NCBI GenBank assembly: GCA_024639085.1
Contig: JAHEJB010000012.1
Span: forward strand, 1-33,477
DNA from: Rubricoccaceae bacterium
Lineage (GTDB): Bacteria; Bacteroidota; Rhodothermia; Rhodothermales; Rubricoccaceae
Reading direction: 5' to 3'
DNA: 33,477 nucleotides
Shown: one piece after another, positions 21,784-25,132 of the stretch
Layout: every line of letters begins with the position of its first letter
Numbering within the stretch: position 1 is the stretch's first letter
Program-made: the position numbers and the translations under genes
The notes under the pieces: model-generated
Database searches by the model: none
What the model saw: only the letters and a program-made list of their open reading frames with translations
What the model was told of the DNA's origin: nothing

Positions 21784-23142
21784 ATGAAAGCCTACCGCAC
21801 AAGCGCAAAAATCAAGATCGGGCTCATAGTTGCAGCCGTATTGATAGCGGTATCGTCGCTAGTGTATACAAACCGGCTTGCCGAGCGTGTCACGCAGCAG
21901 GAGCAGGAAGCAGTGCGGCTGTGGGCACGAGCGATTGAGTTTCAGGCACAGACCAACGTGACGAATCCGTATCTAGCCACCTTTGGTTCAATCGAAGAGT
22001 TGCTGGAATCAAGTAGAATTCGATCCGTCCTGAGCGATTCACTCACGGCCGAATACGCTGTGGCACTTGGATGGGCCCGCATCATGCCTCCGACGGATGG
22101 GCTTGATTTCGTGTTCAACGAAATTATTGAGCCTGCAGAGTTCAGCGTGCCCGCCGTCATCTCCGATTCATTGACCGGCGACGTACTGATCTGGCAAAAT
22201 GTCGATGTGGATTCGCTAGCCTCGTATGAGCAACAGCAAAAAGAGCTACAGGCGTTGGTGGCCCGGTTCGACGAAATGAACGAGCCAATCCGATTTGAAT
22301 TCCATAGTGGGGAAATTCAATACGTACACTACGGAGAATCGGAATTGGCAAGCCTCATTCGCTGGTTTCCGCCCATCCAGATGGGGTTTGTCGCACTGTT
22401 CATTCTTGTCGGTTACCTCGGTTTCTCCTACGTGCGACGGAGTGAACAAAGCAACCTGTGGGTGGGCATGGCGAAAGAGGCGGCCCATCAACTTGGTACG
22501 CCGCTGTCGAGCATGATGGGCTGGCTTGAGATGCTTCGGATGCGTTCCGGCGGCGACGCGGATACGATGGCGACAGTCGATGAGCTTGATCAGGATGTAG
22601 AACGACTTCGGCGTGTAGCAGACCGCTTCGAGAAGATTGGATCACGCCCTGAACTCACGAACACGAACCTGGCGCCCGTGCTTGGCAACGTTGCCGACTA
22701 TGTACGCCGCCGCATCCCGCAGTTGGGCTCGGAAGTGAAGCTTGATCTTTTGGTAGAAGAGGGCCTGGCCGCCCAACTCAATCCAGATCTCTTCGAGTGG
22801 GTCATCGAGAACCTTTCAAAGAATGCCCTGGATGCAATAGAAGGTGATGGGCAGATTACTATCGAGGCGAAGCGCCGCGAAGATGACGTATGGATCGAAG
22901 TGCGAGATTCCGGAAAAGGGATTGAGCGGGGTGCACAGCGCCACATATTCCGTCCCGGGTTCTCCACGAAAAGACGTGGCTGGGGATTAGGTCTCAGCCT
23001 AGCCAAGCGCATTGTTGATGAGTACCATGGAGGATCGCTCACACTGGTGAGCTCTGCCCCCGGCAAAGGCACAACCTTTGGCATCAGCCTACGGCCTGCC
23101 GATGGTCGCGCTATCGACCCAGGCGGAGCCCGTCCGCGATAA
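21784..23142 (+). CDS. membrane sensor histidine kinase
   Basis: Two TM segments flank a periplasmic region. H-box AKEAAHQLGTPLSSMMGWLEML, N-box VIENLSKNALDAIEGDG, DSGKGIE, F-box HIFRPGFSTKRRGWGLGLSLAKRIVDEYHGG. Confidence 0.92.
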   Translation: MKAYRTSAKIKIGLIVAAVLIAVSSLVYTNRLAERVTQQEQEAVRLWARAIEFQAQTNVTNPYLATFGSIEELLESSRIRSVLSDSLTAEYAVALGWARIMPPTDGLDFVFNEIIEPAEFSVPAVISDSLTGDVLIWQNVDVDSLASYEQQQKELQALVARFDEMNEPIRFEFHSGEIQYVHYGESELASLIRWFPPIQMGFVALFILVGYLGFSYVRRSEQSNLWVGMAKEAAHQLGTPLSSMMGWLEMLRMRSGGDADTMATVDELDQDVERLRRVADRFEKIGSRPELTNTNLAPVLGNVADYVRRRIPQLGSEVKLDLLVEEGLAAQLNPDLFEWVIENLSKNALDAIEGDGQITIEAKRREDDVWIEVRDSGKGIERGAQRHIFRPGFSTKRRGWGLGLSLAKRIVDEYHGGSLTLVSSAPGKGTTFGISLRPADGRAIDPGGARPR

Positions 23143-23800
23143 GCGCAGGGTCTTCAAACGTAACTGCGGTGTAAATCACGGCTCTACGACGCCAGAGCAG
23201 GACGTAGTAATCTCCCACGCGCCGTAGATCTACGCCGTCATCCTCTGCGAGCCGGGCGTACACCGCTGGAGACAACGTTAATCGCCCAGCCGCGGCGTCG
23301 AGAAAGGCATAGTCGTAGACATACACGGTGATAGGCTCACTATCCTTGGTTGCGTATTGCAACACCGGCAGTTCAACACCATCTGTGATTTCGTCTACAC
23401 CTACACCAACCAGTCGGCTGTCGGACAAAACGGGAACCCGGATTGGCCATCCAAACTCACCAAGAATGTACTCTTCGGCTTCGTCGAGATCTTCTGTCTC
23501 GATATCCAACAATACGCTTCCGGCTTCGGATGCAGCTAACGTGAGCAGATCGGGGGTATCGCTGATCTCACCCGAAGGACGGACGATTAAGTAGGTGATG
23601 ACGAGCGCTACAATAAATAGCGCGACTCCTCCCAGAACCCGACGATTGACGCCTTTTGCTGCACTATCCGGTTCGACTCTGGTTTGTATGCGGTCGTAAG
23701 CAGGATGATCATCAGGGACGTGCGCTTGTTCACGGAGCTCTTCCGCGTTGAGATCGTCGTCGGATTGAAGTGAGGCGAGAAGCACGAAAAAAAGCATCAA
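23111..23800 (-). CDS. hypothetical membrane-anchored protein
   Basis: 229 aa ORF with one central TM (VLGGVALFIVALVITYLIV). Fills the space between convergent and co-directional genes. Overlaps the kinase 3' end by 32 bp. Confidence 0.65.
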   Translation of the reverse strand: MMLFFVLLASLQSDDDLNAEELREQAHVPDDHPAYDRIQTRVEPDSAAKGVNRRVLGGVALFIVALVITYLIVRPSGEISDTPDLLTLAASEAGSVLLDIETEDLDEAEEYILGEFGWPIRVPVLSDSRLVGVGVDEITDGVELPVLQYATKDSEPITVYVYDYAFLDAAAGRLTLSPAVYARLAEDDGVDLRRVGDYYVLLWRRRAVIYTAVTFEDPALIADGLRLGR

Positions 23801-23806
23801 GATCGG

Positions 23807-24652
23807 CTACTCATCGCCATAAACCAGACTAACAGGGCTTCCTTTATGGATGGTAAGTAAGGTGGCAGCATCCCCGCCGTTGACGCCAACCTCAAGGTGA
23901 TTTGAACTTCCCAGAATAGCCAGCGGCTCCCCCTGAGGTACTTCCGTGTACGTTTTGCGGACCCCTTCCACGATGGTCGAACCGACGTAGCACTTCGCAT
24001 GCAGGCTTCTCGGGTTCTTTTCCAGCACCTCGCGAGAGATGTTCGTCACACAGTTTCCAAAGCGATCGATGTGAACAACAAATCCCTGCACTCCTTCGTC
24101 ATCTGAAAGAGGATGCGCCCAATGCAATTGCTGAAACTTCTCGGTCGGGGTTCCAACCTCTTCCAGCGTTTTCCCCGACGCCAGGTGAGCAGCTACGGGA
24201 CCGAACAGGTCTCGTCCGTTGAAAGTTCTTGCGGGCTGTTCGCTTCGCCAGAACGCTGGTTTGTCCAAGACAACGACCTGTTCAGGCTCGGCGCCTTCCA
24301 GCAGAAGCGACAAGAGCCCATTATCCGGGCCAACAAAAAAGTGGCCTCCAAAACGCGCGGCGATAGGTAGCCGGGCAGAGCCAACACCAGGGTCTACAAC
24401 TGCAAGGTGAACAGTGCCCTCAGGGTAAGCGGGAATCACTTGCCGAAGGACGAACGCAGCGCCCATTATATCCTGTGGTTCAACCTGATGCGTTACATCC
24501 ACCATGTTAAGCGCCGGCTCAACCTGCAACATCGCGCCCTTCATGGCCGCAACGTACGCGTCTGTCAGGCCGAAATCTGTTGTAAGCGTAACAAGTGGTC
24601 GCACAGGCGCACAAAGAGGTGAGGCAGAAATATAGAACCGTTTGAGCCTCAT
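23807..24652 (-). CDS. SAM hydroxide adenosyltransferase (DUF62 / SAM-dependent halogenase-fold family)
   Basis: LVTLTTDFGLTDAYVAAMKGAML, IVDVTH-like MVDVTHQVEPQDIMGAAFVL, AVVDPGVGSARLPIA, FVGPDNGLLSLLL, RTFNGRDLFGPVAAHLASG, IDRFGNCVTNI. Confidence 0.93.
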   Translation of the reverse strand: MRLKRFYISASPLCAPVRPLVTLTTDFGLTDAYVAAMKGAMLQVEPALNMVDVTHQVEPQDIMGAAFVLRQVIPAYPEGTVHLAVVDPGVGSARLPIAARFGGHFFVGPDNGLLSLLLEGAEPEQVVVLDKPAFWRSEQPARTFNGRDLFGPVAAHLASGKTLEEVGTPTEKFQQLHWAHPLSDDEGVQGFVVHIDRFGNCVTNISREVLEKNPRSLHAKCYVGSTIVEGVRKTYTEVPQGEPLAILGSSNHLEVGVNGGDAATLLTIHKGSPVSLVYGDE

Positions 24653-24727
24653 AATGAACGCTATCGCCCGAGCTATCTTGTCTCTACATATCGCATCTTA
24701 CAAGTGGATGCCACGTCTCTTCAGTTC

Positions 24728-25132
24728 ATGTCTCCGAATTCGGAATCAACCACAAAGGCAACCGGTGATCTCGGCGAGAACCTCGCGGCAGAATTTCTGA
24801 TTGCGAAAGGCTACCGCATTCTGGATCGAAACTATCGGTTTAGCAGGGAAGAGATTGACCTTGTTTGCTTTCAGCCCTACGAAGACTACACGAAAGGTGG
24901 CGAACTCGTTTTCGTAGAGGTTAAGACGCGCCGCGGACTAGGATTCGGAAGGCCCGAGGCGGCCGTCGATCGGCCAAAGCAGGAGGCCATCTTCAGAACA
25001 GCGGAAGCCTACCTACATGAGCGCAAACTGGAGGGCTCACCTTGTCGTTTTGATGTCGTGGCTATCACGCTCGAAAAGGGCAGCAAGCCTGATATCGAGC
25101 ACTTCGACAATGCGTTCGGCTACTTCGGCTAG
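24728..25132 (+). CDS. YraN/UPF0102 family endonuclease-like protein
   Basis: TGDLGENLAAEFLIAKGYRILDRNYRFSREEIDLVC ... LVFVEVKTRRGLGFGRPEAAVDRPKQEAIFRTAEAYL ... CRFDVVAI. ATG 24728 is the conventional start; the ORF call begins at GTG 24704. Confidence 0.92.
   Translation: MSPNSESTTKATGDLGENLAAEFLIAKGYRILDRNYRFSREEIDLVCFQPYEDYTKGGELVFVEVKTRRGLGFGRPEAAVDRPKQEAIFRTAEAYLHERKLEGSPCRFDVVAITLEKGSKPDIEHFDNAFGYFG

Follow-up and report, generated by a model that had tools for sequence, protein, structure and literature searches.

SAM hydroxide adenosyltransferases of the DUF62 family are represented among solved structures by PH0463 from Pyrococcus horikoshii (PDB 1wu8, 2wr8), for which a D68-R75-H127 triad is named (PMC4859513), and the Asp-Arg-His triad has been called "strictly conserved" in DUF62 proteins in a review (PMC10491745). 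It is missing from halogenases that share the fold (PMC10491745, PMC3999930), and SAM hydrolases are told apart from SAM halogenases by its presence. Fluorinases carry an extra loop and Ser158 (PMC3999930; PMC4859513). Among characterised members of the family, StDUF62 acts selectively on (R,S)-SAM and makes no chloroadenosine (PMC12120602).

Here we describe a DUF62 gene with Asn in place of the triad His, in a window of 33,477 nucleotides from a Rubricoccaceae bacterium (assembly GCA_024639085.1, contig JAHEJB010000012.1, positions 1 to 33,477).

Family assignment and active-site residues of the window protein

The gene lies on the minus strand at 23807-24652 and encodes a 281 aa DUF62 / SAM hydroxide adenosyltransferase ((R)-SAM hydrolase family), an assignment based on the open reading frame, Pfam, alignment and a structural model. 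A Pfam search matched SAM_HAT_N (2.8e-55) and SAM_HAT_C (3.5e-23), as in a full-length DUF62/SAM_HAT protein, with both domains above their curated cut-offs (PF01887, 186.5 bits against 26.3; PF20257, 82.2 bits against 25.5). The best NCBIfam match was the THET model of (R)-SAM hydrolases, at 203 bits against an equivalog cut-off of 350, a cut-off that His-bearing relatives (219-225 bits) do not reach either. The AlphaFold model (pLDDT 91.9) has the DUF62 fold, with TM scores mostly of 0.8-0.9 against the DUF62 hydrolases in the PDB, the chlorinase SalL and the fluorinase. Since it matches hydrolases and halogenases alike, the fold cannot separate them and the residues must decide.

We aligned the protein with PH0463 (1wu8/2wr8), with which it shares the fold, both domains, the SAM motifs and the equivalents of Asp68 and Arg75. 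The latter two are Asp87 (24392-24394) and Arg94 (24371-24373), both within the motif VDPGVGSAR (residues 86-94, 24371-24397, minus strand). His127 of PH0463, the His of TFHGRD, aligns with Asn145, encoded by AAC (24220-24218, minus strand) within ARTFNGRDLFGPV; the surrounding motif is TFNGRD (residues 143-148, 24209-24226, minus strand), where most homologues read TFHGRD. The same difference separates the window protein from the Thermus (R)-SAM hydrolase 2cw5 (THET model; TFHGRD), its best sequence match among solved structures. The SAM-binding motifs PxNGL and IDxxFGN are both intact, as PDNGL and IDRFGN, the latter including DRFGN (residues 196-200, 24053-24067, minus strand), a motif named in PMC4859513. 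The gene, the AAC codon, the retained Asp and Arg and the description of the triad given by an earlier sequence-only reading thus all hold, the codon also by comparison with a sister species (see below) and the triad by the PH0463 alignment and the literature (PMC4859513, PMC10491745). Because the His127 equivalent is Asn145, the protein is a variant of the family and not a canonical-triad hydrolase.

That reading had also raised the use of a halide as nucleophile. An enzyme of this kind, in which a halide or a different small nucleophile would accept the adenosyl group of SAM, would have precedents in the triad-less halogenases of the same fold, and in the sister protein the halide-contact column (SalL Gly131, FlA Ser158) holds Ala and the column of SalL Glu74 holds Asp. 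SalL from Salinispora tropica (2q6i, 2q6o, 6ryz) shares the fold and, like the window protein, lacks the triad His (Tyr130 in SalL), but it has Tyr72 and Thr79 at the columns of Asp68 and Arg75, where the window protein retains Asp87 and Arg94; the column of SalL Tyr70 is occupied by Val85 (the aligned structure is SalL Y70T, with Thr there). The fluorinase FlA from Streptomyces cattleya (1rqp) also shares the fold (TM 0.85), but the column of its Ser158 holds Gly146, and the window protein lacks the fluorinase loop, with no insertion when compared with PH0463. Its score against the TIGR04507 fluorinase model is 71.8 bits, about the same as that of His-bearing relatives, against a cut-off of 400. 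With the halogenase residues absent, a halide-using enzyme is unsupported, and the ordinary neighbours and vertical descent from hydrolases described below speak against it as well; we regard any such change of nucleophile as highly improbable.

Distribution of the histidine replacement

Across 169 homologues from the window's order and many phyla, the His column holds His in 162, Asn in five (one of them a second entry for the sister species) and Gln in two. Only one further species of the genus was sampled, the sister (L003; public record L032, a separate MAG). Its protein is 84% identical to that of the window and also has Asn, encoded by AAT. The next relative, from the same family (L004, genome G003, 67% identity), has TFHGRD, as have all remaining sampled family members, including a partial gene in genome G008. 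Both sampled species of the genus are therefore fixed for Asn, which no other sampled member of the family has and which is rare elsewhere; it is not common in the clade, as the sequence-only reading had allowed it might be. Genome counts were made with a longer degenerate DNA motif, a short one giving mostly chance matches: among 396 genomes of the phylum, F-H-[GA]-R-D-x-F was found in 173 and F-N-[GA]-R-D-x-F in one, that of the window. In an Acidobacteriota class, 2 of 162 genomes carried the Asn motif (L075 and L081 only).

Two further explanations put forward at the outset fell away. The window genome is a MAG (88.7% complete, 235 contigs), of a quality at which a sequencing or assembly error could arise, but the independently assembled sister has the same residue with a different codon; we rejected an error, whose probability we take to be negligible. 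Nor did the homologue alignment reveal a compensating His at any near-invariant column of the window protein, and a different His in the triad role was likewise rejected. The genome encodes a SAM synthetase and a single PF01887 gene was found in it, so that no canonical copy is seen covering for the Asn145 form, although a second could lie in the missing part of the assembly; we rejected a paralogue freed by redundancy on this ground. A single DUF62 gene was also present in all four genomes with His-less homologues that we checked.

In a maximum-likelihood tree of 152 homologues, the window protein and the sister formed a group (support 99) that L004 joined next (97), within their own order and with no marked acceleration on the branch of the window protein. 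His-less rows occupied at least four separate positions: this genus; the pair L049/L171 elsewhere in the order (support 100), one with Asn and one with Gln; L075/L081 in Acidobacteriota, accounting for one or two losses; and L088 (4001-4762) in Nitrospirota, with TFQGRD and a single DUF62 copy in its genome. Every replacement observed is thus a carboxamide, Asn or Gln. Single-base nonsynonymous changes of CAY lead to Asn, Asp, Tyr, Arg, Pro, Leu or Gln. About 3/8 of these paths give Asn or Gln, and by our own arithmetic, which ignores mutation bias, the chance that four of four losses would do so is about 0.02 (transition bias would lower it). Such a pattern suggests a continued demand for a side chain able to form hydrogen bonds here, and favours a hydrogen-bonding role kept by the column. 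Another triad residue is replaced elsewhere in the order: on a long branch, the DUF62 proteins L052/L168 (G088) have Gln at the equivalent of Arg94 (VDPGVGSKQQ), with Asp and His kept.

Gene neighbourhood, descent and selection

Immediately downstream of the DUF62 gene, after a gap of 6 bp, lies a gene for a small membrane-protein-like product of 229 aa with no Pfam match (23111-23800, minus strand), a conserved neighbour in this order. The two are probably co-transcribed, and the membrane protein is a possible functional partner of DUF62. On the other side is a divergent UPF0102/YraN gene (24704-25132, plus strand), also a conserved neighbour. Together with a sensor kinase gene these form a block conserved in the order (sensor kinase, small membrane protein, DUF62, YraN), which also surrounds L004, L049 and L171; the adjacency of the membrane gene to DUF62 is kept across much of the order. 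The conserved block shows orthology and vertical descent of the DUF62 gene and, with the tree, led us to reject the recent horizontal gain of a halogenase. We saw no halogen or secondary-metabolism genes near the window gene, whose neighbours are ordinary housekeeping genes.

Between the window gene and its sister, dN is 0.093 against a dS of 1.49, an omega of about 0.06, and among six neighbouring genes DUF62 encodes the best conserved protein (84% identity; the others 68-82%). Selection on the gene clearly persists, so that its product is probably a functional, if unusual, form of the SAM hydrolase family, and neither an enzyme that uses halogens nor an artefact of sequencing. Conservation reaches at least 95% at 38 columns. 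Of these, the window protein deviates at the His column (145) alone, whereas the sister has three deviations (G89D, H145N, G146A), L049 five and L171 nine.

Some members of the order lack the DUF62 gene or carry it in broken form. L241 (G415 C151:21251-24001) is a decayed copy with stops, frameshifts and a missing GRD motif, and L240 (G085 C120) is a second copy with a frameshift at TFHGRD in a genome that has an intact copy elsewhere. Decayed genes imply that some lineages can do without the activity, and would be expected if a weakly needed hydrolase had drifted into a slightly harmful His-to-Asn change on its way to loss. Asn has, however, been kept since the split of the two species (dS about 1.5) and the window species has lost no other conserved residue, so that early-stage drift seems very unlikely here.

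Fate of the water site and function of the variant

In L049 and L171, the deviations at conserved columns mostly fall in the two catalytic motifs. Of the further deviations in His-less homologues, 12 of 15 lie inside these motifs, compared with 15 of 73 deviations in homologues that have the His (Fisher p 2e-5, shared descent ignored). Among the 7 His-less rows, 3 carry G146A and 3 have a changed G89; among the 145 His-bearing rows the corresponding counts are 1 and 2. In both comparisons the His-less cases come from two lineages only. Both Gly are changed in L003, L049 and L171, whereas both are unchanged in the window protein. This clustering points to a water site opened to more change by the loss of His, which seems to proceed while the SAM-binding residues persist, as they do in the His-less homologues. 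At L049 (1330-2115) and L171/L209 (L209 1501-2283), of G077/G409 in Rhodothermales g40, the water site is strongly altered and the genes are still open; the motifs of this lineage read PFNARDVL with VDPEVG and PSQARDIL with VDPAAG. By their motifs, these genes are better pseudoenzyme candidates than the window gene.

A SAM-binding pseudoenzyme is the main rival also for the window protein, as a dead or nearly dead protein that would have abandoned the water site and kept the SAM pocket and trimer for binding or sensing. The erosion of catalytic motifs around intact SAM-binding residues would follow from it, as would the decayed genes of the order, and the purifying selection on the gene is equally expected of a non-catalytic SAM-binding protein. 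It is a better account of the relatives with more erosion than of the window protein, which has lost the His alone, with Asp87 and Arg94 intact, and the consistent choice of carboxamides and the low dN/dS also weigh against it; we consider it a real but lesser possibility, at roughly one chance in three. The sequence-only reading had named both an inactive protein and one in which Asn places the water; the evidence of selection leans towards a functional protein.

The reading that we favour, with modest confidence, is that of a vertically inherited DUF62 (R)-SAM hydrolase that would still be functional, its third triad residue having become Asn in this genus. Its close kinship to the His-bearing family member of G003, within the conserved gene block, speaks for it, and the literature description of a triad strictly conserved including its His (PMC10491745) against. 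SAM would bind as in other DUF62 enzymes, the binding residues being intact; the attacking water would be held and polarised by Asp87 and Arg94, and the carboxamide of Asn145 would cover the hydrogen-bond part of the role of His. We infer from these residues that SAM would still be split to adenosine and methionine, with water placed by Asn145 and the rate or pH profile probably changed. Also against this reading, the G89D and G146A changes of the sister and the more eroded motifs of L049/L171 could be a path to catalytic loss.

More speculatively, and in our judgement improbably, the water site of DUF62 may have been remodelled stepwise in several bacterial lineages with SAM binding kept, first by replacement of the His with Asn or Gln and afterwards by G146A and G89D or G89E. 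The products would then form a separate functional class, either hydrolases with a new arrangement of carboxylate and amide or proteins binding SAM or a SAM epimer.

The substitution is real, rare and fixed in its clade, in the active site of a known enzyme family, and the "strictly conserved" triad is thus not strictly required by selection, a point that is directly testable. Natural His-to-Asn and His-to-Gln variants under selection, with a close His-bearing orthologue as control, make up a set of homologues for probing the role of the His in water activation. The same set lets one ask whether the evolution of halogenases could pass through such intermediates.
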